In this document: piece after piece, positions 23,472-44,976 of the stretch
Layout: the number at the start of each line of letters is the position of its first letter
How positions within the stretch are numbered: position 1 is the stretch's first letter
Virus record (IMG/VR): IMGVR_UViG_3300031772_000061
Span: 1 to 45,602 of that record
Strand: one strand, 5' to 3'
Source: a virus
Length of the DNA: 45,602 nucleotides
Made by a program: the position numbers and the translations under genes
Notes under the pieces: model-generated
Seen by the model: the letters and a program-made list of their open reading frames with translations, nothing else
Told to the model about the DNA's origin: nothing
Database searches by the model: none

Positions 23472-24455
23472 ATGCCTTATAGTTCTGCTGCTGTCTTACA
23501 TTGCAATTTGCCGATCAGGTTTGATTCTTATAGAGGATCGTGTCCTTTTCAATGCGGCTACTGTTCTGAAAAGATACATGGTAGAAATAACTTCAGACCG
23601 TTTGAATCATTCAAATCATTGGAACAGTGGACTAAAGGTAAACGCAATGCCGATACAAATTGGTGTGATTGGAAGATTCCATTGCATTGGGGTGTACTGT
23701 CCGATCCATTGCCCTTTTGTGATAAGATTACTAGGCGGTCATACAAAGTTTTGTACACGTTTGCAGAGACAGGCTATCCATTTGTCTTAACAACTAAATC
23801 AACTCTGATTATGGATGATGATTATCTTGGCCTGATTGCCAACTGTAATGTCGTTGTTCAAATTAGTATGACTTCTAAATCATTTTCATTAGAGTATGAA
23901 TCTAATGCACCATCTTATCGTAATCGATTTGCCATGCTTTATCATCTGGCACAATATGCTAAAAGGCTCGTGGTACGGTCTCAGCCTTTCGTGGTGGAAT
24001 CGCTAGACGAATTGATAGGTATGATACCCGCATATAGATCAAGTGGTGTATACGCCCTTCTAGTTGGTGGTGTATCATTACGTCGTCCTGTCGGCAGCGT
24101 GACCGAACGAGTTGGTGACTCGTATACTTATCCATCACAGTCTTTAGAGCAACCACTAAAGGTTATCCGTGAGTGTTGCCATGCTAATGACTTGGTGTTC
24201 TTGACTAATGAGTGTAACCTGGAGTCGCTATCAGACTCTATTACTTGTTGTGGTACTGAAGGGCTTGAAGGATTCGATGTCAACAAGTGTAATCTATCGT
24301 ATGAGATTGAGAACTATGTAACACCATCAATGATGATGGCTGGTTCGGCTCAAGTCTTTAGGTCAGGTTGTAGGGATAGTAGGTTTAAGTATCGGACATT
24401 CATTGATGTGCTTAGGCAGTTCAACTCTCAGGGTAATGATGGTCTTGTTAAGTGA
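23472..24455 (+). CDS. Radical SAM protein (SPL-like)
   Basis: 327 aa, ATG with AAGGAA upstream. C-P-F-Q-C-G-Y-C near residues 24-31 is the C-x3-C-x2-C motif that binds a 4Fe-4S cluster and S-adenosylmethionine. H-W-G-V-L-S-D-P-L-P-F and V-L-T-T-K-S follow, as in spore-photoproduct-lyase-like phage radical SAM proteins that often lie beside PAPS-reductase-like genes. The substrate is unknown; modification of nucleic acid is a common suggestion for such phage pairs. Extra Cys in the C-terminal third could hold a second cluster. Confidence 0.75.
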   Translation: MPYSSAAVLHCNLPIRFDSYRGSCPFQCGYCSEKIHGRNNFRPFESFKSLEQWTKGKRNADTNWCDWKIPLHWGVLSDPLPFCDKITRRSYKVLYTFAETGYPFVLTTKSTLIMDDDYLGLIANCNVVVQISMTSKSFSLEYESNAPSYRNRFAMLYHLAQYAKRLVVRSQPFVVESLDELIGMIPAYRSSGVYALLVGGVSLRRPVGSVTERVGDSYTYPSQSLEQPLKVIRECCHANDLVFLTNECNLESLSDSITCCGTEGLEGFDVNKCNLSYEIENYVTPSMMMAGSAQVFRSGCRDSRFKYRTFIDVLRQFNSQGNDGLVK

Positions 24456-25172: not shown

Positions 25173-25239
25173 AAAGAGAGGTAAAAAAGAATCGAAAGTT
25201 ATTCCGCCCATAGAATTTTAGGTGGGGGAAGGAGGACAT

Positions 25240-26175
25240 ATGGCAAGTCGAAAGTGTGCGGAACGTGGAGTAGTGAGCAAGGGTGGCAAGAGTGGTGGGG
25301 GTAAACAGGGTATGTCTGTTGAAATAGATAATGTGGTGGCAATAGATGATGTTGGTAGTGAAACATATAATTTGTCAATTACACCAAGTGGAATTGATAA
25401 TCTAGCGCCGAAGAAGCAAGTTAGTGGCTTAATATCAAGAATTGTCAGAGGAATTGGCGAGGAAATAACGGCTAGTGAGACACCGGAAGAAAAGGCAGCG
25501 AGAGAGAAGCAAGAGGCGACAAGGTTACGATTAGCCGAGATGCTAAAATCGGCTAATGGGTTATGGAATGGTAGTTCATATAAAGATAAAGACTATCATG
25601 CAAATAAGTATGATAGTGTTGTTGGTGGTGGTACGGGCAATGTTCATTTAAATGATCAGTATGGGGCTGTAATGATGGTAACAGGCAGTCGTGGGTTTGA
25701 CAGTGACGCTAATTATGCAAAGGTATTAGATCTGCTGGAGAATTGGGTTGGCTATCATCAAATTGGTGGCATTGCGTATGTAGTGCATGGTGGTGCTAAG
25801 GGCGCAGACTCGCTGGTGGAAAGAGCTTGTAAGCAACTTGGTATACCGACAAAGATATATGCGGTATCGAGTGATCAGTGGTCAGGTAATATCAATGCTG
25901 GTAAAGAGCGTAATTCTAGTATGTTATGGGATAATTATAATCGAATAACATCAGCAACTGCTTTTTTTAATGGGGAAATAACTCCTGGAACAGGCGATAC
26001 AGTAAAGAAGTTAATCCTTTCGGGCAAGGGTGGAAATATTGTTGGTGTAAGCAGTCCAAAGGTAGAGAAATGGGCTGGGCAGTGGGTACCTGATTACGTA
26101 CGTAAATGGGCGGGTGATCCTGCATTAAAAGGTTTGGAAAAATATGATGATTATGATAAAGAGATTGAGAATTGA
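25240..26175 (+). CDS. SLOG-domain (YspA/DUF2493-like) protein
   Basis: 311 aa from ATG 25240; GTG 25222 would place the GGAGG site inside the gene. Residues 1-25 are Lys/Gly-rich and basic. The SLOG (Rossmann-like, nucleotide-binding) domain spans about 140-260: M-V-T-G-S-R-G-F-D near 145-153, V-V-H-G-G-A-K-G-A-D-S-L-V-E-R-A near 180-195, then N-A-G-K-E-R-N near 220-226. SLOG proteins bind nucleotide-derived ligands, and some act in anti-phage signalling. Length is about twice that of a plain YspA protein owing to the N- and C-terminal parts. Convergent with the replication operon. Confidence 0.8.
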   Translation: MASRKCAERGVVSKGGKSGGGKQGMSVEIDNVVAIDDVGSETYNLSITPSGIDNLAPKKQVSGLISRIVRGIGEEITASETPEEKAAREKQEATRLRLAEMLKSANGLWNGSSYKDKDYHANKYDSVVGGGTGNVHLNDQYGAVMMVTGSRGFDSDANYAKVLDLLENWVGYHQIGGIAYVVHGGAKGADSLVERACKQLGIPTKIYAVSSDQWSGNINAGKERNSSMLWDNYNRITSATAFFNGEITPGTGDTVKKLILSGKGGNIVGVSSPKVEKWAGQWVPDYVRKWAGDPALKGLEKYDDYDKEIEN

Positions 26176-33728: not shown

Positions 33729-34238
33729 ATGGAAAACTTACTATCAGAAGAATGTGAGCATAACGAAGCTTTTGAACATTACTTTTCTCTTAGACATTTA
33801 GGAACTGAAAGAGAACGATTTAATCAAGTAGCAAAAATAATTGAGAAGTCCGTAACCACCATTCAGAAATGGTCTATAGGAGAACAGTGGAATAAACGAG
33901 TCGAGTATAAACTTAATAAAATGCTTAACACTATTGATAAAGAGATAGAACATAGAGTTACGGAAGATGTTAAGAATATTCAAGCGATGTTAATGGCAGG
34001 GCTTGATGAGTTCAAGAAGAAAGTGGATAGCGGTGAAATAAAAATAACATCTTTTAAGGAAGCTAATGACTGCATAAATGCCTATACCAAAATTTCTAGT
34101 TTAATTCAAGATAATAGTAAGGTAAAAAATCCAGTAAGCATCTATATAGTTACAGGAGTACCAAGACCAGATGGAAATACAAGAACCATTATTGACATAC
34201 CATCCAAGCCAATTGCCCTTGGAGAATCTTCGGGATAA
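33729..34238 (+). CDS. terS: Terminase small subunit
   Basis: 169 aa from ATG 33729 with GGAG 6 bp upstream (ATG 33717 is an alternative). Residues about 10-50 look like a DNA-binding helix-turn-helix (F-N-Q-V-A-K-I-I-E-K-S-V-T-T-I-Q-K-W-S). The middle is helical for oligomerisation (L-M-A-G-L-D-E-F-K-K-K-V). It recognises phage DNA for packaging. It overlaps the large subunit by 68 bp. Confidence 0.8.
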   Translation: MENLLSEECEHNEAFEHYFSLRHLGTERERFNQVAKIIEKSVTTIQKWSIGEQWNKRVEYKLNKMLNTIDKEIEHRVTEDVKNIQAMLMAGLDEFKKKVDSGEIKITSFKEANDCINAYTKISSLIQDNSKVKNPVSIYIVTGVPRPDGNTRTIIDIPSKPIALGESSG

Positions 34239-36612
34239 TGACACGATAATTGATATATCAAAAAGATATATTCCGACTCCAAAGCAATATCTAGCTCATA
34301 CTGCCCAAGAAACTAATCTACTTTATGGGGGCGCGATGGGTGGTGGAAAAATGCAGGGTGTCAACGAATCGGTCTGCACTCCATTTGGAATTAAACGTTT
34401 TGGTGATATTAAAGTTGATGATTTTGTTATTGGAAAAGATGGGCTTCCAACACGAGTGATAAAAATATGGGAACATGGAGAACAGGATTTATATAAAATT
34501 ACATTTACGGATGGTTCTTTTACTCATTGTGGTTTAGAACATCTTTGGTTAGTCTCTTATTCTAGTACAAAACACAAGAAAAATAATGTTAGAGTTCGAG
34601 AGTGGGGTGTTCAAACAACAGAACAAATAATTTCATGGATGGATAAAGGATTAGTGGATTCTGCTGGTGTAAAGAAACATCCATTGATACCTTTATGCGA
34701 TCCTGTTCATTTCAATAGGACATACAAAACAGACCAATTTAACCTTGATTCTTATGTAGTCGGTTTGTTATTAGGCGATGGTTGTATCACAAAACAATTA
34801 GGAATAACATCGGAAGATATGGAATGTATTAGTGCAGTAGAAAAAGAAGCTCTTAGATTGGGTTGCAGAACAAGACTTAATCAAAAAAAAGAATCCTCCT
34901 GTTTTGATTTATCAATAACAAATAATTCTAAACTTATAGCACTATTAATAAAACTTGGGATATATGGGCATAAAGCAGACACAAAATTTATACCAGAAAT
35001 ATATAAAACCGCTTCAATAGAACAACGTATAGCTATAATACAAGGATTATGTGATAGTGATGGTTATATAGATGCTAGAGGACACCCTTCTTTTTGCAGT
35101 ATAAGCAAGCAGTTAGCAGAAGATGTTCAATATATGATCCGCTCTCTTGGTGGAAAGGCAACTATTACAAGTCGAATCCCGACTTTCAGGAGTAAAGGCA
35201 TATTAAAAGATGGACAAAGAGCATATAACGTTACTATAAGAACTAATAATGATGGTATGCTTTTTCGCTTACAACGGAAATTAGATCGCATTAAAAAGTA
35301 TAATGGTGGGTGCGCATTAAAGAATAGAATCGAATCTATTGATTTTTCGCATCGTGAAGAGTGTCGTTGTATAACAGTTGATGCTCCTGATGGTTTATAT
35401 CTTACGAATGATTTTATTGTAACTCATAACTCCACGTGGTTGTGTGTTGAAACTAGAGAGTTACTTCTTGAATATGATGGTAATGTAGGTTTTTTAGGTC
35501 GTTGGGAAAGTACTACATTTAATAGAACTACCCTTGTAACATTACTAAAGCATCTACCAAAAGAGATTATAAAAAAACATTCCACTTATGAGCATTATAT
35601 TCAATTTGTAAATAACTCAATACTTTATTATGGTGGATTGAAACCTACGCAAGCTTCTGCACCAATAGACAAATTCAAGTCTATGGAATTAGGTTTTTTT
35701 GGTATTGATGAAGCCTCTGAGGTACCAGAAAGCATATTTTTAGTCTTAGCTTCACGATTACGAATACCAATTCCAAGAATTCATTATAGAGCTTTATTAA
35801 CATCGAACCCGGAACGTGGATGGGTAAGGGATCGATTCGTAAAGCAGAACTTACCAGATCATTGCTTCGTACAAGCTCTTCCAAAAGATAATCCACATAA
35901 TCCACCAGATTATGAATCAAAGTTAAGAGAATTGTTTCCCTCTGAATGGGTAGAAAAATATCTCAATGGAGATTGGGATTTTGCTATCGAAGATAATTAT
36001 GTTTTTACTTTCAATATGATTTCAAATGCAATGGAACGAAATTTACCACGCTCTGGTGATGTCATATTAGGAGTTGACTTTGCTCGTAAAGGTAAGGATA
36101 ATACAGTTATAAGTGCTACATGGAATAATGGCCACAATGAGATACTTTATACTTGTGACTACACACCAGATTTAATGCCAGTAGTGGGAAAAGTTGGACA
36201 GTTCATAGATGAATTACATCCAAAGAAAGTAATTGGCGATGCAGTTGGACTTGGTGCAGGCGCTTGTGATAGACTAAGAGAAGTACATGGAGATATCGTT
36301 ATTGATTTTGTTGGTGGTGCAAAAGCAGAAAATCCCAAGCGTTATGATAATCGTAGAGCAGAAGCTTACTGGACATTTAGAAAGAAACTTGAAGATGGTA
36401 TTTCAGACTTGCCAAATGACGAGAAAATACGTCAGCAAGCATCATCTATCAAAGGACATATAGATTCTGACAGAGTGGTACGCATAGAAAGTAAAGCAGA
36501 GATGAAAGATTCACCTGATGAGATGGATGCGATCATAATGAGTAATTCAATGACAGGCAATAAAGATGAGATTATTGGATATGTTAGAAAATGGAGAGGC
36601 AGAACAGAATGA
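34171..36612 (+). CDS. terL: Terminase large subunit, interrupted by an intein
   Basis: 813 aa, of which residues 61-420 are an intein. The joined protein is 453 aa, normal for TerL. The P-loop is split: G-G-A-M-G-G-G-K (53-60) joins S421-T-W-L to give the ATPase Walker A motif. I-D-E-A-S-E further on is Walker B. The RNase H-like nuclease has D in I-L-G-V-D-F-A-R, D in V-I-G-D-A-V-G and D in S-P-D-E-M-D. It cuts and pumps DNA into the head. No clear ribosome site; probably coupled to terS. Without splicing the ATPase cannot work. Confidence 0.95.
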   Translation: MEIQEPLLTYHPSQLPLENLRDNDTIIDISKRYIPTPKQYLAHTAQETNLLYGGAMGGGKMQGVNESVCTPFGIKRFGDIKVDDFVIGKDGLPTRVIKIWEHGEQDLYKITFTDGSFTHCGLEHLWLVSYSSTKHKKNNVRVREWGVQTTEQIISWMDKGLVDSAGVKKHPLIPLCDPVHFNRTYKTDQFNLDSYVVGLLLGDGCITKQLGITSEDMECISAVEKEALRLGCRTRLNQKKESSCFDLSITNNSKLIALLIKLGIYGHKADTKFIPEIYKTASIEQRIAIIQGLCDSDGYIDARGHPSFCSISKQLAEDVQYMIRSLGGKATITSRIPTFRSKGILKDGQRAYNVTIRTNNDGMLFRLQRKLDRIKKYNGGCALKNRIESIDFSHREECRCITVDAPDGLYLTNDFIVTHNSTWLCVETRELLLEYDGNVGFLGRWESTTFNRTTLVTLLKHLPKEIIKKHSTYEHYIQFVNNSILYYGGLKPTQASAPIDKFKSMELGFFGIDEASEVPESIFLVLASRLRIPIPRIHYRALLTSNPERGWVRDRFVKQNLPDHCFVQALPKDNPHNPPDYESKLRELFPSEWVEKYLNGDWDFAIEDNYVFTFNMISNAMERNLPRSGDVILGVDFARKGKDNTVISATWNNGHNEILYTCDYTPDLMPVVGKVGQFIDELHPKKVIGDAVGLGAGACDRLREVHGDIVIDFVGGAKAENPKRYDNRRAEAYWTFRKKLEDGISDLPNDEKIRQQASSIKGHIDSDRVVRIESKAEMKDSPDEMDAIIMSNSMTGNKDEIIGYVRKWRGRTE
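34351..35430 (+). other. Intein in TerL, class 3 signature, with LAGLIDADG endonuclease
   Basis: 360 aa from Met 61 to Asn 420. It has no Cys or Ser at position 1; the first residue is Met. Block B reads T-H-C-G-L-E-H-L-W (Trp two after the His), block F reads E-C-R-C-I-T-V (Cys at the usual Asp position), and block G ends I-V-T-H-N before Ser. Trp, Cys and Thr at these places define class 3 inteins, which start splicing with the block F Cys. Two LAGLIDADG motifs (L-L-L-G-D-G-C-I; L-C-D-S-D-G-Y-I-D) indicate a homing endonuclease. Confidence 0.85.
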
Positions 36613-38051
36613 AGATATTACGAAAAAAAGAATTAACTAGGATAGATCAAGTCTATAAAGATTTAGAACGCGCAAATTTTAAGATTGCAGAGCTAGAAAA
36701 ACAACAGTCTGAGATTATAGGTAAAGTTTTCATAGTCACAGCCAATGGAAAAATGATTACAGGTGATTCAATAATGAAAAGCGATACTGATAAGTCTAAA
36801 CAGACTAAGGATGCCGATTCATGGAGTAATACTTTAGGACTTGCCAATAAACCATTTGACCCTTATGCTTTTCTATTATTATATGATGAAAGCCCTACAC
36901 TATTCAGAGTTATAAATCAGATTGCAACCGATGCCGCTGGACTTGGTTATTCTCTTACCTTAAATGAGCATCATAAAGAAAGTATAACCGAAAAACAAAG
37001 AATTCTGACTTTACTGAAGAATCCAAATGGTGGTAAATCTAGCTTTCGCCAAATTATGAATTCTCTAATAATTGACTATGAGTTAGTTGGTTATCAGGCG
37101 TTAGAAGTAGTACGAGGAAAAAATAATAAGGTAACGAAGATATTTCATCTGCCAGTATGTGATTTATGGGTGCATGCCGACGGTAATAAGTTTTGCCAAA
37201 AATCTGGTACAAAAGAGGTATGGTTCAGCGAATTTTCTAATGACGTGGATAGATTACGAATAAAATCATCTAATGGGGGCATCCAAGAAGATTTAACATT
37301 AGATGACATTGGCAATGAAATATTTTTTAATAAGATGTACTATCCACGTTCAAAACTATATGGAGTACCACCATTGATGAGTGCGGTTGGACATATTGCA
37401 AGTATGATTGGAATCAGGGACTATAATTTATCCTTTTTTGAGAATCTAGGAATACCCGCTTATCTTGTACAATTAACTGGCAAATGGAGTGATGATGCAG
37501 CCGATGACATCCACAAGTTTATCAATACCGAATTAAAGGGCGCATCAAATGCCAATAAAACTTTGATATTACAATCACCATCTGGAGGAGAAGCTACTTT
37601 CACACCTATTTCTACTCAAGCAAGAGAGGGATCATTTAGACTCTATCTCGATTCGCTTAAAGAGGATGTGCTTTCGGTATACTCAATGCCACCATATCGA
37701 ATAGGAATAGCAGAAGTAGGAAAGTTATCGGGTACGACAGCGAAAGAATTGAATGAAATATATAAGAATGGAGTAATAGAGCCAGTACAAGATGAATTAG
37801 AGAAGATGATGGATGCCATTATTAATTCTGAGGCTTATACATTTAAATTTATAGATTTAGATACTAAAGATAAAATGTTAGAGTTGTCATTAGAAACACA
37901 GAAACTAAATACAGGTAGAATTTCAATAAATGAATTAAGAAGAAAAGCTGGTGAAATTGAATTACCTGAGAAGTTTGCAGATTATCATTTTGTGTCACGC
38001 AGTATGGTACCATTAGAGTTACTTGGACTTGTTTCGCCTTCAGGAAAGTAA
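36609..38051 (+). CDS. Portal protein (PBSX-type)
   Basis: 480 aa from ATG 36609, whose ATGA overlaps the terL stop. Features of HK97/PBSX-type portals: F-R-V-I-N-Q-I-A-T-D-A-A-G-L-G near residues 97-111, P-R-S-K-L-Y-G-V-P-P-L near 245-255, then D-Y-N-L-S-F-F-E-N-L-G-I-P-A-Y near 274-288 and P-P-Y-R-I-G near 358-363. It forms the 12-fold ring through which DNA enters. Follows terL as usual. Confidence 0.9.
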   Translation: MKILRKKELTRIDQVYKDLERANFKIAELEKQQSEIIGKVFIVTANGKMITGDSIMKSDTDKSKQTKDADSWSNTLGLANKPFDPYAFLLLYDESPTLFRVINQIATDAAGLGYSLTLNEHHKESITEKQRILTLLKNPNGGKSSFRQIMNSLIIDYELVGYQALEVVRGKNNKVTKIFHLPVCDLWVHADGNKFCQKSGTKEVWFSEFSNDVDRLRIKSSNGGIQEDLTLDDIGNEIFFNKMYYPRSKLYGVPPLMSAVGHIASMIGIRDYNLSFFENLGIPAYLVQLTGKWSDDAADDIHKFINTELKGASNANKTLILQSPSGGEATFTPISTQAREGSFRLYLDSLKEDVLSVYSMPPYRIGIAEVGKLSGTTAKELNEIYKNGVIEPVQDELEKMMDAIINSEAYTFKFIDLDTKDKMLELSLETQKLNTGRISINELRRKAGEIELPEKFADYHFVSRSMVPLELLGLVSPSGK

Positions 38052-38053
38052 GT

Positions 38054-41000
38054 ATGTTAATCGAAGATATAAACTCAAATTCAGTAAAGGCTATTACAAA
38101 AGAAAGTCTATATGCTTTAAGAGTTCGATTACAGCATCTTTATAAGCGATACCTAGATATAGAGAAATCAGACTCTTTGGTCACGATTGATTGGGATAAT
38201 CTCGATAATATTCAAAGGATGTTAGATAGTGAGATGTCCAGTCGTGGATTATTTATCTCAGTATTGCCAATAGTGAAAAGTGATAAATGGAATCTCTGTA
38301 AACCGTACTATCGCATATTTTCAGTTGATGACTTAAGGAACACACCACTATTCAACAAAGCTGACAAAGTAATCGTAGATACAAAATTTGATGGGTGTCG
38401 GACTAAGATACTAATCGAGAATAGAATTAGGATAATAACCGATCCAGCGGACACTGAAACACCAGATAAGACATCACGATTACCGATCTTGGTAACCGAA
38501 TTCAAGTCAATGAATATCCTAGAAAATACGGAGTTCGATGGTGAACTCGTTATGATACAGGGCAACGAGTGTCTACATAGAACCGCGGTAAATGCGTTAA
38601 TCAATGGTAAATTTGATCCCACAGATTTTACCAAATTAGCGCATTTATATATCTTTGATATACTTATGGATAGTGGAAAGAATACAAGAGCATTTCCATT
38701 GAAAGAGCGAATTGAGTTACTATCCAAGTTTAAGGATACCGAACATATACATTTCGATAAGCCATCAACATTTCTAGGCAAGCCATCATTATCTTACGTA
38801 ACTAACAGCGCAGATATACCAAAAGTAATCACCAAGTTAATGAATCAATCCAAAAGTGGTAACAACTTTCCAAAGTTTATTGCTGAGGGCGTTATGGTAA
38901 AACTTTTGGATGCGCCGTACCAAACACCTGAAAATCATGGTTGGTTAAAGTGGAAAGAAAAATTTGAATTAGATGCCTTAGTTGTGGGTAAACGCGAAAC
39001 TAAAACTTCCGGAACGTTTAATTATGATTTGGCTGTTGGCCCAATATCAAAAGAGTGGGCTGATGCCATATCTGAAAAAGATAAAAACTTTGTTACTGAG
39101 TATAATGGTGAATATTATAATCTAGTTGGAAAGTCAGACTCCACTAATCAGAAAGTTTCTATTGGTGAAATTCTTAGAGTTGCTTCGGAAGATGTAAATA
39201 TGTATGAGACGGATAATCCACAATTTCAGTATTATGGGTGTTACGTTTCCATAGTATTGCAAACGGTACCAGAAAAGAGTCATTCAGATGATATGGTTGT
39301 GTTAGAGAGATTATCCGAGATGACACCCAAGCGGAAGAGTTTTACAAAGGGTATTACAGATGACGTAAGAGAATCTATTAGAAATGGTTCTATACCGAAG
39401 GAGATATACGATAAATGGGCAAAGCCAAACGAACCTTTACCAAAAGAGTTTTATCCCGATTATCGAGAAGGCGATGGGTTTTTACAAAGTCATATTCGTG
39501 GAATTTTAGACGAGGAAATGAATGATTACAAGTCAGGAACGAGAGAGTTATGGGAAATATTCGTTAGTCATTCAATACATTTAGATTTACGAATAGACTT
39601 TGGGTTTCCAATTTTGATACAGTTTGTATTCACGGATAATGATGTGGATTCCTTAATTAGATTTCTAACAGGGGCAACAGTTACAAATATAGCAGGGAAG
39701 TCAGCAATAGCACATTCTATGATGGTAGTTAAACCAAGTGCAGAAGAACCGCAAGAAACGCTAAAGAAAAATATGGATGAGAGTGCAAGTGGTGCTATTG
39801 ATGTTGATGGTGCAAAAGCTCTGGAAAAGATACAGATTCTCAGTAGCTCGTACTTTATAGAGAAAGGTGGAATTGGTGCTACACCATATACAAACTCATG
39901 GATGGGTACAATATGGACAGGTCATATTAAGGCTGGTTGTCAACGTTGTATGATTGGTGATACTAAAATGATTTGCAGAGATGATAGAGGATTTATTTAT
40001 AGAAGAGAAGTTAGTCAAATAGTGGATAGAAAAGAAAATGTAGAGATACTAACTCCATCTGGCTTTGTAAAAATTAAAAATTATATTAAGATACCAGCAG
40101 AAAATATTTTATCAATTAAACTTTTTAATGGGTCGGTAATTCATTGTGATCCCAATCATCCTAGTTTGGTTTATAGAGATGGAAATCTCACTAAAATTCC
40201 GGCATTAAATATTAACGTTGGTGATGAAATACCTATAGATTCAAAAGGATATGATGGTATTGGTGGGTCATATGAACTTGGAAGATTTATAGGTTTATTC
40301 TTGGCAGAAGGGACATTAATACAAGGCAGAAATGAAGGATTAAGTTTTTCATTACATATCAGTGAGGACAAATTATCAAATTTTATTTCAGATTTTGCTA
40401 CTAGATGGGCTTCTAATGTATCTATTACAAAGCATTCTACCTCAAATTCAATGACAATATTCGCTACTCAGGCAGGCAGTTTAGTTGGACTTATTAAACA
40501 ATTTGTTAAGGAAAATAAATCATTAAGAAATTGCGTATTTGGACTATCGAGAGAATGTAGAAAAGGTATAATTAACGGATTTGAGGAAGGAGATGGCGAT
40601 CATTCCGCTGATTTATTTGGAAAATCTTATATATCAATAACTCAGGGAACTCCACATAAAAAATTAATAGAAGATATTCAACATTTACTTTTTAGTATTG
40701 GAGAAATAGCATCAATTAATTCATGGAAAAGTCAATATAAAAAAGGTGGAGATAAAGTTTATTGGATTCATAGAGTTTCCTATAATTTTGGAAATAATAA
40801 AATGGGATCATGGACTATAATAGATCATAAGGGTGAAAAATATATCAAAGTAAAAGAAATTCGTATAAATGATTCCTCTATATTAGAAAGTGGAATAGCA
40901 AACTTATATGATATTGAATTGGAATCAGACCATAGAATTATACTGTCAAATGGAATTATTACATCAAATAGCGATCTTCATGAACTGTTTATGTTTCCAG

Positions 41001-41206
41001 ATAAGGAAACTAAGATACTTGATGGGCGCTTAGTTATCAAAGCATTAAAAGGACAGGATAATGCGCGATGGGAAGCATGGATGGCAATGCGTGATCCTAA
41101 ACCTATGGACCCGATATTACATCATTGCACTTCACATTATTATCCTATTAAAGCAGAGGAAGTCAAAGGATTTGGCAGAGAATCCTATAGTTACGGGGGA
41201 AAATAA
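38054..41206 (+). CDS. ATP-dependent ligase with phosphoesterase-like domain, interrupted by an intein
   Basis: 1050 aa; the spliced protein is 709 aa. Ligase motifs: K111-F-D-G-C-R (motif I with the adenylated Lys), L-Y-I-F-D-I-L near 198, E-F-D-G-E-L-V near 160, E-G-V-M-V-K near 278 (IV) and W-L-K-W-K near 297 (V), then an OB-like region. Residues about 480-631 plus 973-1050 resemble the LigD 3'-phosphoesterase domain (S-I-H-L-D-L-R near 507-513; Q-R|S-D-L-H-E-L-F after splicing). It would seal nicks and clean DNA ends. Location among head genes is unusual; a virion or packaging-linked repair role is inferred. Confidence 0.8.
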   Translation: MLIEDINSNSVKAITKESLYALRVRLQHLYKRYLDIEKSDSLVTIDWDNLDNIQRMLDSEMSSRGLFISVLPIVKSDKWNLCKPYYRIFSVDDLRNTPLFNKADKVIVDTKFDGCRTKILIENRIRIITDPADTETPDKTSRLPILVTEFKSMNILENTEFDGELVMIQGNECLHRTAVNALINGKFDPTDFTKLAHLYIFDILMDSGKNTRAFPLKERIELLSKFKDTEHIHFDKPSTFLGKPSLSYVTNSADIPKVITKLMNQSKSGNNFPKFIAEGVMVKLLDAPYQTPENHGWLKWKEKFELDALVVGKRETKTSGTFNYDLAVGPISKEWADAISEKDKNFVTEYNGEYYNLVGKSDSTNQKVSIGEILRVASEDVNMYETDNPQFQYYGCYVSIVLQTVPEKSHSDDMVVLERLSEMTPKRKSFTKGITDDVRESIRNGSIPKEIYDKWAKPNEPLPKEFYPDYREGDGFLQSHIRGILDEEMNDYKSGTRELWEIFVSHSIHLDLRIDFGFPILIQFVFTDNDVDSLIRFLTGATVTNIAGKSAIAHSMMVVKPSAEEPQETLKKNMDESASGAIDVDGAKALEKIQILSSSYFIEKGGIGATPYTNSWMGTIWTGHIKAGCQRCMIGDTKMICRDDRGFIYRREVSQIVDRKENVEILTPSGFVKIKNYIKIPAENILSIKLFNGSVIHCDPNHPSLVYRDGNLTKIPALNINVGDEIPIDSKGYDGIGGSYELGRFIGLFLAEGTLIQGRNEGLSFSLHISEDKLSNFISDFATRWASNVSITKHSTSNSMTIFATQAGSLVGLIKQFVKENKSLRNCVFGLSRECRKGIINGFEEGDGDHSADLFGKSYISITQGTPHKKLIEDIQHLLFSIGEIASINSWKSQYKKGGDKVYWIHRVSYNFGNNKMGSWTIIDHKGEKYIKVKEIRINDSSILESGIANLYDIELESDHRIILSNGIITSNSDLHELFMFPDKETKILDGRLVIKALKGQDNARWEAWMAMRDPKPMDPILHHCTSHYYPIKAEEVKGFGRESYSYGGK
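39947..40969 (+). other. Class 1 intein in the ligase-like protein, with LAGLIDADG endonuclease
   Basis: 341 aa, residues 632-972. It begins C-M-I-G-D-T (Cys 1), has block B H-C-D-P-N-H-P, and ends N-L-Y-D-I-E-L ... I-I-T-S-N before Ser 973. The residue before the final Asn is Ser instead of the usual His, seen in a minority of inteins. LAGLIDADG motifs: I-G-L-F-L-A-E-G-T-L and I-N-G-F-E-E-G-D-G-D. It interrupts the phosphoesterase-like part, just before its conserved D-L-H segment. Confidence 0.85.
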
Positions 41207-41208
41207 AT

Positions 41209-41439
41209 ATGTCCGATACAGAATGGGATAGTTGCAAGCGTGAGATATTAGATTTTATTAAAGATCAGAAGCTTCGTAATGATAAGTCAGATACTCAGAT
41301 GCTCTTATTATTGCAGGAAGTCGCGGTTATTAAAACTAAAGTTCTTGGATGGCAAATAATCTTTGGGTATGTATGGTCGCCATTTTGTGTGATTGCCACT
41401 GGATTAATAGTTTACGTTCTTACTCACGGAATAAATTAA
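41209..41439 (+). CDS. Small single-pass membrane protein
   Basis: 76 aa with GGGGGAAAAT upstream. A charged helical N-terminus (K-R-E-I-L-D-F-I-K-D-Q-K) and a coiled-coil-like middle precede one membrane segment (C-V-I-A-T-G-L-I-V-Y-V-L), with a short tail. Resembles XhlA-type or holin-accessory proteins in shape. Placement between ligase and protease genes is odd for a lysis gene. Confidence 0.6.
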   Translation: MSDTEWDSCKREILDFIKDQKLRNDKSDTQMLLLLQEVAVIKTKVLGWQIIFGYVWSPFCVIATGLIVYVLTHGIN

Positions 41440-41440
41440 A

Positions 41441-42589
41441 ATGGAACTAACAACGGAAAACACATCTTCTGATGCTAATGGAAAGGAACAGTATAAAGCT
41501 TTTGATATTCAGAAAAAGACTCAGGAAGCAGAGATTGCTCAATTAAACTTAGATAATCTGCCTGAATTCGTCTGGATTCCCGATTTTATTTCATTAGCAG
41601 GTTCGGTAGTGTATAATACTATACGAAAACCAAATGATTTAGATGTCATAGTGCGCAGTGATGAGAGCAATAGTAAATTCACTATCGAGTTAGATAAGTC
41701 ACTGCGTTTGAAGATAGATAGAATATTATTGGATCGTGTTGGATCACCGTCTGATAATTGGAGTACCGTTGATTGGATTGGTAATACTTACGGGCCGAAT
41801 TGGAAATATTTAAGTTTATATGATTTAGTATTACGACCAAAGAAGCCTGAAATACATAAATTAGATGAACCAGAGTTTGAAGCTGAATTCTATAAGTCTG
41901 CTGAAGATAGCAAACAGATAATAGATGATAAACTCAAACATCCTGAAAGACACAAAACCGCATTATTATCAGATTTACGGTATATGGGTAATACTGGATT
42001 TCCATTATTACAGTCAAGGAAGCCGTGGGGAACGTGGTCAAAACTTGGGCTTTTGCAATATTTCGCTAAAATAGTCGATGCACTTCGTAGTATTGACATT
42101 GAATTAGTTGCACCTTTAATTGGTGATGATAAATACAAGACATCATATTGGGAATGTTATCGCCAAGCAAGAAAATATCTAAAAAAACCAGAGATTATAG
42201 CAATAGAGAAACCGATAGCAAAAGACTTAAAGTTTTCAATCACAAAAGAAGATGAGCGGATTGTTACGAGTGTAGTATATCCGGTTGATGAAGAAGATAG
42301 TCAGGGGGATTTTACTGATGCTATTGAGATACGGAAAGCAGCAATCGGATTTATGGAAAACTCTAAACGTATCAAAGTTTATCATGAAGGTCAGTCCATA
42401 GCTGTAAATATCATTGAAACGTATCTATCACCTGTTGACTGGACGATGACTGATACTCATGGTAATACACAGTTTATTAAAAAGGGTTCTTGGGTAATGA
42501 GTCTTAGAATATTAGATGATTATCGTTGGAAGCAAATTAAGGATGGAACATTAACAGGGTTCTCTATTGGTGGTACGGCGCAGGTATAA
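41441..42589 (+). CDS. Nucleotidyltransferase fused to XkdF-like prohead protease
   Basis: 382 aa. Residues about 45-140 look like a polymerase-beta-type nucleotidyltransferase: S-L-A-G-S-V-V-Y-N with G54-S55, then N-D-L-D-V-I-V (D66, D68) and a possible third Asp in K-I-D-R. A middle part (about 150-250) has D-L-R-Y-M-G-N-T and Y-F-A-K-I-V-D-A-L. Residues about 262-382 match XkdF-type phage serine proteases: D-S-Q-G-D-F-T-D near 286-293, V-Y-H-E-G with His 315, I-E-T-Y-L-S-P-V-D-W and T-G-F-S-I-G-G at the end. The protease matures the head and may release the N-terminal part. Confidence 0.8.
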   Translation: MELTTENTSSDANGKEQYKAFDIQKKTQEAEIAQLNLDNLPEFVWIPDFISLAGSVVYNTIRKPNDLDVIVRSDESNSKFTIELDKSLRLKIDRILLDRVGSPSDNWSTVDWIGNTYGPNWKYLSLYDLVLRPKKPEIHKLDEPEFEAEFYKSAEDSKQIIDDKLKHPERHKTALLSDLRYMGNTGFPLLQSRKPWGTWSKLGLLQYFAKIVDALRSIDIELVAPLIGDDKYKTSYWECYRQARKYLKKPEIIAIEKPIAKDLKFSITKEDERIVTSVVYPVDEEDSQGDFTDAIEIRKAAIGFMENSKRIKVYHEGQSIAVNIIETYLSPVDWTMTDTHGNTQFIKKGSWVMSLRILDDYRWKQIKDGTLTGFSIGGTAQV

Positions 42590-42947: not shown

Positions 42948-43775
42948 ATGAAATTTGAGAAGGCAAGATTGTTGAAAAAGATTGAGGTAGATGAGATTTC
43001 TTTAGTAGAACGCCCAGCTACCCGTAGAAAATTCTTGGTTATCAAGGAGGATAATACAGTGAAAGAATTAATCGAGTTACTTAAAGAGTTCGTACCAGAA
43101 TCGGAGGACGCAGATTATGATGTTATCGAAAAAGCTGATATGAAACCAGCTACGTTAAAGGCAATAAAAGGAGCATTATCAATCTTACTGGCATATAAGT
43201 CTGATATGCCTAGCGATCTAATATCTGCTATCGGAGTTTTGGCAAAACATGCAATTGGATCCCCGTATCCTCGACCATATAAAAAGTCAGAAGAGACGTT
43301 AGAAGAACTCGTGGCACAGATAGAAAAATCTGGACGCAGACTTTCTGCTGATATGGTTGATAAACTAAGAGAAATCACAACTTCTTTAAACTCATTAATC
43401 CCAAAAGATGATCAGGAAACAGAAGAAAAGAAAGTTGCGGAAAAAGATAAAGTGAAAAAAGACGATTCGCAAGTATCAGACATTCAGAAAATTGTAGATT
43501 CCATTAAGACAGATTTTCAAGGTGAGTTTACCAAATTAGGTGAGAGGTTACTTACATTGGAAAAAGGGGATAAGGATTCAAAACAGTTAAAACAGGATAA
43601 ACTCAAAAAAACTAAGAAATCGGATGATTCTGATCTCTATCCAACTGCAACTGAAGCGTGGTTTGGTAAATCTGAGGTCTCAGATGATGACTCCAATGAA
43701 GATGAGTCTGATGATGACTCTAATGATGATTCTGATACCGGGGATAAGAAAAATAAAATAGAAAAAGAACCATAA
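42948..43775 (+). CDS. Scaffold-like protein
   Basis: 275 aa. The start has E-V-D-E-I-S-L-V-E-R-P-A-T-R-R-K-F near residues 14-30, the V-S-L-V-x-x-P-A-x-x motif usually found at XkdF/scaffold junctions. The middle is helical and charged. The C-terminal 50 residues are Asp/Ser/Lys-rich and disordered (D-D-D-S-N-E-D-E-S-D). Highly charged helical proteins before the capsid gene usually act as scaffolds and are removed by the protease. Confidence 0.7.
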   Translation: MKFEKARLLKKIEVDEISLVERPATRRKFLVIKEDNTVKELIELLKEFVPESEDADYDVIEKADMKPATLKAIKGALSILLAYKSDMPSDLISAIGVLAKHAIGSPYPRPYKKSEETLEELVAQIEKSGRRLSADMVDKLREITTSLNSLIPKDDQETEEKKVAEKDKVKKDDSQVSDIQKIVDSIKTDFQGEFTKLGERLLTLEKGDKDSKQLKQDKLKKTKKSDDSDLYPTATEAWFGKSEVSDDDSNEDESDDDSNDDSDTGDKKNKIEKEP

Positions 43776-43833: not shown

Positions 43834-44976
43834 ATGAGAAACAAAGATATTCTAAGACAAGCTACTATTAATAAAACGTCGTTCATGAAGATGGATTCCT
43901 TTACTGCGATTACATTAGCGGCAGAGGAAGCTGATAAATTCTATGATACACTCATAGATCAGTCAGTATTGAAGAATGTGGCTAGAGTAGTTAAACATAA
44001 AGGGTCTGAGAAGAATATCCGTGCCATCGGATTTGGTACTGATGATTTTCTCTATCCATCAGCACAATTCTCTCAGTCTACAATCAAGGGTGGATCAACA
44101 AAGAAGTTTACAAATGATCTTATTACTCTTACTACAGTTGAACTTAAAGGTGCATTAAAGGTATCTGATTCTGATTTAGAAGATGGTATTGAAGGTACTG
44201 CATTTACACAGCACTTGATGAGTTTGGTAGCTAAACGAATGGCTAATCAGTTAGAGGCTTTTTATTGGTCAGCCGAGTCACAGGCGCTATCCCATAACAT
44301 CTCAGCATATGCAAATGATGATATTCGTTCGTTACTCGATGGTTGGAGATATAGGATTGATAACTCTCAATCTGGAGAGTATTATGAGAATGATGTTACA
44401 GGTTCAGCAGTCATACTTGATGCCTCAAATGTCGTTACTGCAAAAAAGGCAAGTTATACCATTGCGACAACAAAGTACATTGCTGAAGAGGCTTCTGGCG
44501 CACCTTATGACATTGAATTCAAGTACGGAAAATTGCTCGATTGGATACCAACTGAGTATGCCAATCTCTTACCACAGTTTAAGTTCTTCAATCATCCGAT
44601 AGTAACCAATAAGTATTTCGAGTTCTTAGAGAAGCGCGCTGCTACTGGAACTGATACGATTACATCAGGTGCACTGAAAAGAGAGTTTAGAGGTACTCCA
44701 ATAGTAGATACGCCATTAATGCCACTATGTTATGAGGTATATTCTGCGGGACAACATGAGAACTATGATAGTACGGTAGCGATCACAGCGGGACTGACAG
44801 ACGTACTTTTGACAATACCAAATAACTTGATAGTAAATTTCCAGAGAGAAATTAAGATCGAACCCGAGAGATCAGCTTTCGATAGTGCAACTTATTTTGT
44901 GTATACGATCAGGACAGGTTGTGCAATCGAGGATATACACAAATGTATAATGCTAAAGCGACTTGAGGTAGCTTAG
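43834..44976 (+). CDS. Major capsid protein (HK97 fold)
   Basis: 380 aa with AGGAG upstream. Follows protease and scaffold genes. N-terminal helical part (T-L-A-A-E-E-A-D-K-F-Y-D-T-L-I-D-Q-S-V-L-K near 27-47), an E-loop-like region around 65-95, then F-T-N-D-L-I-T-L-T-T-V-E-L-K-G-A-L-K-V-S-D near 92-112 and a spine-helix region (A-K-R-M-A-N-Q-L-E-A-F-Y-W) near 135-147. Residues about 155-220 may be an inserted domain. Size and order are typical for capsid subunits of this group. Confidence 0.85.
   Translation: MRNKDILRQATINKTSFMKMDSFTAITLAAEEADKFYDTLIDQSVLKNVARVVKHKGSEKNIRAIGFGTDDFLYPSAQFSQSTIKGGSTKKFTNDLITLTTVELKGALKVSDSDLEDGIEGTAFTQHLMSLVAKRMANQLEAFYWSAESQALSHNISAYANDDIRSLLDGWRYRIDNSQSGEYYENDVTGSAVILDASNVVTAKKASYTIATTKYIAEEASGAPYDIEFKYGKLLDWIPTEYANLLPQFKFFNHPIVTNKYFEFLEKRAATGTDTITSGALKREFRGTPIVDTPLMPLCYEVYSAGQHENYDSTVAITAGLTDVLLTIPNNLIVNFQREIKIEPERSAFDSATYFVYTIRTGCAIEDIHKCIMLKRLEVA

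Follow-up and report, generated by a model that had tools for sequence, protein, structure and literature searches.

A candidate DNA end-repair cargo in a viral head operon: ligase, LigD-like phosphoesterase and nucleotidyltransferase domains tied to the XkdF prohead protease

Introduction

Incoming viral DNA is usually regarded as relying on the ligase and the repair systems of the host. The bacterial enzyme LigD is the NHEJ ligase and has the domain order POL-PE-LIG, with a POL domain of the primase type. The roles of individual residues in its phosphoesterase (PE) domain have been described, among them the Mn triad His42/His48/Asp50 and the phosphate contacts His84 and Tyr88, which are essential in Pseudomonas LigD (PMC8656161). 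Among viral proteins, the polyvalent proteins of phages are presumed to enter the virion and to be injected from it (Iyer et al. 2017, PMC5512222).

Here we analyse a 45.6-kb linear virus record from IMG/VR (IMGVR_UViG_3300031772_000061, positions 1 to 45,602, hereafter the window), the right end of which is a tailed-virus head operon in which an ATP-dependent DNA ligase, a LigD-PE-like domain and a nucleotidyltransferase (NTase) accompany the XkdF prohead protease. About a hundred uncultivated viruses have the set as well, frequently in the form of a single giant protein. Our preferred reading, to which we assign a probability of roughly one half, is that the head operon encodes a multi-enzyme cargo for the repair of DNA ends and nicks, which would be loaded into the prohead by the protease and would act on the packaged or injected genome. 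If this is true, some viruses come equipped, in the capsid, with a kit for repairing their own genome (protease plus NTase, LigD-type domain, ligase and often a Dam methyltransferase), and viruses would have a means of end joining that parallels the bacterial and Pol X-based ones and is independent of them. The analysis also provides a predicted function for many unannotated proteins, up to about 2000 residues long, from uncultivated archaeal and bacterial viruses.

The Head Operon and Its Relatives

The operon opens with TerL (34171-36612, +; phrog_2 7e-28, LAGLIDADG_3 5e-12), which provides the upstream context and contains an intein at the Walker A lysine (codons 61-420, 34351-35430); a relative in L083 is free of it. 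The first residue of this intein is Met, not Cys, and a CRC block lies near its end, a combination suggestive of a class 3 intein. TerL is followed by a portal protein of the PBSX/SPP1 type (36591-38051, +; PF04860 4.9e-23, phrog_12 7e-44, L083 portal 2.9e-104), by the intein-interrupted gene for ligase and PE domain (38054-41206, +), by an ORF of 76 aa with a hydrophobic C-terminal stretch (41209-41439, +) that has no relative among the fetched loci and is thus unique to the window, and by a gene in which the NTase, a helical domain and the XkdF protease are fused (41441-42589, +). A scaffold-like protein (42948-43775, +; C-terminal part of phrog_3017 3.5e-6, L054 8e-35) and the major capsid protein (43834-44976, +; phrog_1623 2.6e-37, L054 3.9e-203) complete the head genes. 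The middle of the window is otherwise unannotated, with a radical-SAM-like protein (23472-24455; 0.0025) and a SLOG/YAcAr-like protein (25222-26175; 0.0005), both below the curated cut-off.

Relatives, cited here by L number, were sought in IMG/VR with a DNA pattern built on the spacing GxxGAT-x24-HExF of the PE domain. This gave 111 stretches, all open in frame, of which about seven would be expected by chance on an arithmetic estimate; one, L010, was left out as not family-like. Five domain profiles derived from the window were then mapped across all fetched loci, and after removal of near-duplicates 86 non-redundant loci have the PE domain by profile. Scans of viral contigs with the single ligase, the fusion, the ANMV-1 protein, the portal or a two-sequence alignment returned nothing, because the sequences are too divergent for short exact patterns, and tblastn searches of phages with the NTase or the PE part yielded nothing beyond chance matches. 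In a sequence search of the isolate-phage collection the module was found in ANMV-1 only, which is itself uncultivated. A search among MAG contigs gave 46 matches, many of them unrelated proteins that were removed by eye; members' contigs are binned with MAGs of Methanosarcinales, Archaeoglobales, Thermoplasmata, Geothermarchaeota, Aenigmatarchaeota, Planctomycetota and Myxococcales, and some of these are probably free viral contigs.

An ATP-Dependent DNA Ligase

The adenylation and OB domains of the ligase occupy 38276-39328 (+; aa 75-425) and match DNA_ligase_A_M (PF01068) at 6.4e-10 and the NHEJ ligase model TIGR02779 at 1.1e-16. Motifs I, III, IV and V are all found (K111-FDGCR, FDGEL 161, EGVMVK 278 and KWKEK 299), as indeed are all the motifs quoted for this region in an earlier note made from the sequence alone, and the protein has the KxDG adenylation domain and the OB fold of an ATP-dependent DNA ligase. 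The ligase of L027 matches it at 6e-119, and for the AlphaFold model of that relative (pLDDT 87) the best 50 PDB matches are nucleic-acid ligases, mostly DNA ligases, together with a capping enzyme; the best Foldseek match in the PDB is an archaeal DNA ligase (E 8e-16).

The ligase varies in form among the relatives. Four related loci, L052 (4992-8969), L074 (4622-8602), L094 (7356-11528) and L107 (396-4390), share a break in the adenylation domain: one ORF ends and the next takes over at an identical position, a pattern suggestive of a split ligase, a frameshift or a bypass. A 1261-residue ligase protein in L029 (4952-8737) contains about 350 additional residues within the ligase domain, probably another intein, and the ligase of some relatives, such as L105 (6120-9014) and L112 (6947-10468), is preceded by a fused metallo-beta-lactamase-like domain.

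Of 15 larger records, the window included, 13 have the module ligase as their sole recognisable DNA ligase, and in the other two the Pfam model detects none. A search for NAD-dependent ligases in the 15, most of which are fragments, gave no match. This makes a role in replication or packaging the main rival to the repair cargo. The ligase-PE protein would then be an ordinary viral ligase for replication or late recombination, and would be missing from virions; its place among the head genes would reflect a need for ligation just before or during packaging, when concatemers at the portal have nicks and gaps to be sealed. In the window and its nearest relatives the ligase and XkdF belong to separate proteins, which speaks for this rival and counts against a cargo. 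We nevertheless regard it as unlikely, since in other relatives ligase, PE and NTase are repeatedly fused to a prohead protease in the interval between portal and capsid, an arrangement that a role in replication does not readily account for, and since the ligase census itself draws mostly on fragments.

A LigD-Phosphoesterase-Like Domain Interrupted by an Intein

The PE-like domain is encoded in two parts. Its N part (39476-39946, +; aa 475-631) contains Q478, H480, H509, D511, R513 and GIGAT at 606-610, and its C part (40970-41206, +; aa 973-1050) has HELF ... DGR ... W. Between them lies a LAGLIDADG intein of 341 aa (39947-40969, +; aa 632-972), which begins with C1 in CMIGDT, ends in TSN|S and matches Intein_splicing at 4.6e-5. 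It is inserted within the best-conserved motif of the domain (GxQR | xxHExF). The proposal of the earlier note that an intein splits a PE-like region agrees with the intein-free relatives L027, L044, L049, L083 and L105, in which the domain runs contiguously across the insertion site of the window.

Taken alone, the window's PE segment matched no Pfam family, and single-sequence PDB searches gave chance matches or none; the identity of the domain comes from the family. LigD_N (PF13298) was matched in 6 of 82 proteins of relatives (best 2.9e-9), and LigD_PE_dom (TIGR02777) in 9 of 44 PE segments (best 2.5e-6; best on whole proteins 1.5e-7). A family profile searched against the PDB gave two matches only, 3p43 and 3p4h, weak (E 0.05-0.07) and both LigD-type phosphoesterases. 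An hhalign comparison with 30 cellular LigD_N PE domains gave a probability of 96.8% (E 2.7e-10, 128 columns), so that homology to the LigD 3'-phosphoesterase superfamily (PF13298/TIGR02777) extends over the whole domain. In the L027 model the confidence of the PE part is mostly above 90, and the Foldseek list is filled by ligases. The earlier note's placing of a ligase joined to a LigD-like PE region between portal and capsid is thus borne out by profiles, and the PE-like domain is shared by 86 viral loci.

The active site is conserved in part. Gln40, His42, His48, Asp50 and Arg52 of LigD are kept in the family (His48 and Asp50 each in 83 of 84 sequences), so that the Mn triad and Arg52 are in place, and the remainder of the LigD residue set is lost: the position of His84 is Q or E in 68 of 88 sequences, that of Tyr88 is W in 71 of 88, and the window has other residues at both. 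A domain without these two residues is uncertain as a phosphoesterase. GxQK..HEYF, which is the best conserved of the motifs peculiar to the family, lacks a counterpart in LigD, and its invariance is partly built in and is not evidence of conservation, since GAT and HExF were fixed by the search pattern. Both points would fit a domain set that is inactive or structural, the PE-like barrel serving for example in DNA binding or as a part in head assembly. We consider this very improbable: Gln40, Arg52 and the residues of the metal triad hardly vary over about 84 sequences, most of them less than 30% identical to the first sequence of the alignment, and the ligase motifs are intact.

A second PE-like stretch follows the PE domain in L090 (5512-8574, aa 700-900) and L002 (3200-5800, aa 700-866), recognisable by segments such as PGEYGNPSKD...W.F.GKKLKAF and without the catalytic N-terminal histidines. 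In BFVD, an unnamed viral protein model of 827 aa (A0A516LT18) aligns with the model of ligase and PE across 743 columns (E 2.3e-31), so that a further described viral sequence probably has the ligase-PE architecture.

A Nucleotidyltransferase Fused to the Prohead Protease

The C-terminus of the fusion protein is the XkdF domain (42236-42589, +; aa 266-382, with H315 and S375), which matches Peptidase_S78_2 (PF14550) at 5.6e-25, above the curated cut-off, and phrog_3017 at 8.8e-31; its structure model has a weak fold match to the T4 gp21 protease (probability 0.66). The N-terminal part (41558-41860, +; aa 40-140) carries G54 S55, D66, D68 and a likely third acid, D128. Alone it is a weak match to NTP_transf_2 (0.22), and the NTase part of the fusion's structure model has low confidence and is unreliable. 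The assignment is carried by 25 relatives, in which G, D and D of GS-x-DhD are invariant and S nearly so, the third acid is D or E in most (N in L027), and weak matches reach 3.4e-4 for NTP_transf_2 and 2.2e-3 for DNA_pol_B_palm. The family profile finds DNA polymerase beta as its best PDB match and ASFV Pol X as the next, both weakly (E 0.05-0.24). The domain thus shows the signature of the Pol-beta superfamily (G[SG], then DhD, then a third acid), with profile matches that are weak, and the fusion of an NTase to an XkdF-like protease, as the earlier note had it, holds through its conservation. Between the two lies a conserved helical domain (41912-42190, +; aa 158-250; model confidence about 90) that recurs inside the ligase proteins of relatives such as L112.

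Gene Order, Fusions and the Case for a Cargo

Across the 86 PE loci, most of them truncated, the ligase was found in 53, XkdF in 43, the NTase in 37 and the portal in 27, counts that are lower bounds because most loci are fragments. Where at least 3.5 kb was available on both sides of the PE domain (13 loci), ligase was present in 12, XkdF in 8 and portal in 7. The earlier note had suggested searching other phages for the same gene order, and either the order or a fusion of the window's set does recur in relatives, the conserved order being TerL-portal-[ligase-PE]-[NTase-XkdF]-scaffold-capsid. Two arrangements predominate. The split one, ligase-PE and then NTase...XkdF, is common to the window, L027, L044, L049, L054, L083 and L105, with the portal upstream and scaffold or capsid downstream as far as each contig extends. 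In the fused arrangement NTase, PE, ligase and XkdF form one protein of 1000-1925 residues with portal and capsid on either side; such four-domain polypeptides occur in L013, L014, L018, L045, L057, L061, L066, L071, L075, L076, L090, L091 and L106. L018, L061 and L090 have a portal gene before this protein and a capsid gene after it, and L090 is compact, consisting of TerL, portal, a 1020-residue NTase-ligase-PE-XkdF protein, scaffold and capsid. A chance assembly of neighbouring genes can be rejected, because the order is conserved in relatives and the fusion is repeated; since fusions recur independently, NTase, PE and ligase form a single unit in evolution, and the prohead protease is linked to it.

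Other domains join the unit. Dam-type methyltransferases are often fused (MethyltransfD12 in 18 of 82 proteins), as would be expected of a cargo that protects DNA, and metallo-beta-lactamase-fold domains, a single InPase and a single AdoMet decarboxylase occur in some members. In many loci the Dam-type adenine methyltransferases are fused to NTase or to PE/ligase proteins, for instance at 7929-9746 of L027 and 4516-10509 of L095. The methyltransferases, the metallo-beta-lactamase-fold domains and the InPase domain would also suit a polyvalent counter-defence cargo, whose injected enzymes would modify or protect DNA (by Dam methylation or by sealing restriction cuts) or would modify molecules of the host; the substrate of the NTase might then be a protein or a small molecule in place of DNA ends. 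This explanation draws support from the polyvalent proteins associated with virions, in which InPase domains occur and among whose domains Pol-beta NTases are given as modifiers of proteins (PMC5512222). It overlaps strongly with a repair cargo, and the co-occurrence of PE, NTase and ligase, which is more regular than that of the other domains and matches the logic of end repair, leads us to consider it rather improbable.

The strongest fact in favour of the repair cargo is the repeated fusion of a protease that works in the prohead to NTase, PE and ligase, for which a cargo loaded and released by that protease is the simplest reading. The Pol-beta-type NTase, LigD-PE-like domain and ligase are physically tied to XkdF, by fusion in many relatives and as adjacent genes here, and the protease, on entering the prohead around portal and scaffold, would take the enzymes along. 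XkdF would then cut them free during maturation, and the released enzymes would travel with the packaged genome and be ejected with it into the next cell. There, damaged or terminal DNA ends and nicks, the presumed substrates, would be cleaned, extended and sealed before replication, with a division of labour in which the PE-like domain cleans 3' ends, the NTase adds nucleotides and the ligase seals. Against such a cargo stand the possibility that XkdF releases the enzymes before they reach the head interior, the replacement of LigD His84 and Tyr88 in the PE domain, and a search for Ku that found none in 30 records. We put forward tentatively, as a possibility, that many uncultivated archaeal and bacterial viruses carry in their capsids a Ku-independent, NHEJ-like end-joining kit that is loaded by the protease and ejected with the genome, which it would repair or circularise on entry.

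Comparison with Known Systems

The earlier note had likened the set to the three activities of LigD, and this parallel stands insofar as the three domains are as claimed. NTase, PE and ligase mirror those activities, the giant viral proteins are ordered NTase-PE-ligase, the PE domain is homologous, and the module ligase scores best against the NHEJ ligase model. Identity with LigD is rejected. The viral NTase is of the Pol-beta type, whereas the POL of LigD belongs to another superfamily, and no primase-type POL domain was seen in a Pfam scan of 82 relatives; Ku (PF02735) was found in none of 30 viral records, window included, which may be fragments; the viral PE lacks His84 and Tyr88; and the viral set, unlike LigD, is tied to a prohead protease and a head operon. 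At best, then, the viral set works like LigD.

A search of the literature on LigD or phosphoesterases with prohead proteases, and on XkdF with ligases, returned no report of the set, in a coverage that mostly excludes subscription papers. In the virus ANMV-1 (KP703175), NTase, ligase and PE are encoded as one protein (AJP62006) directly after the portal, with a similar PE tail whose GxxGAT-x24-HExF spacing is identical to that of the window. That protein differs in its gene fusion and is annotated just as "ATP-dependent DNA ligase", and XkdF was not found within the 12.6-kb stretch of its genome that was read. Fusions of XkdF to a nucleic-acid enzyme occur in isolated phages as well, in phrog_1530 ("DNA methyltransferase") and phrog_14859 ("RNA ligase"), but these contain one enzyme each, and LigD-PE or NTase is not noted in them.

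Polyvalent proteins differ in that a set of DNA ligase, LigD-PE and NTase fused to XkdF is not described among them (PMC5512222, in whose text LigD and XkdF are absent as terms and "ligase" occurs three times). They resemble the viral set in being large multidomain enzymes that adjoin portal and head genes, and the giant NTase-PE-ligase-XkdF proteins are likewise multidomain proteins encoded with virion genes. The nearest described kind is thus the virion-associated polyvalent proteins (PMC5512222).
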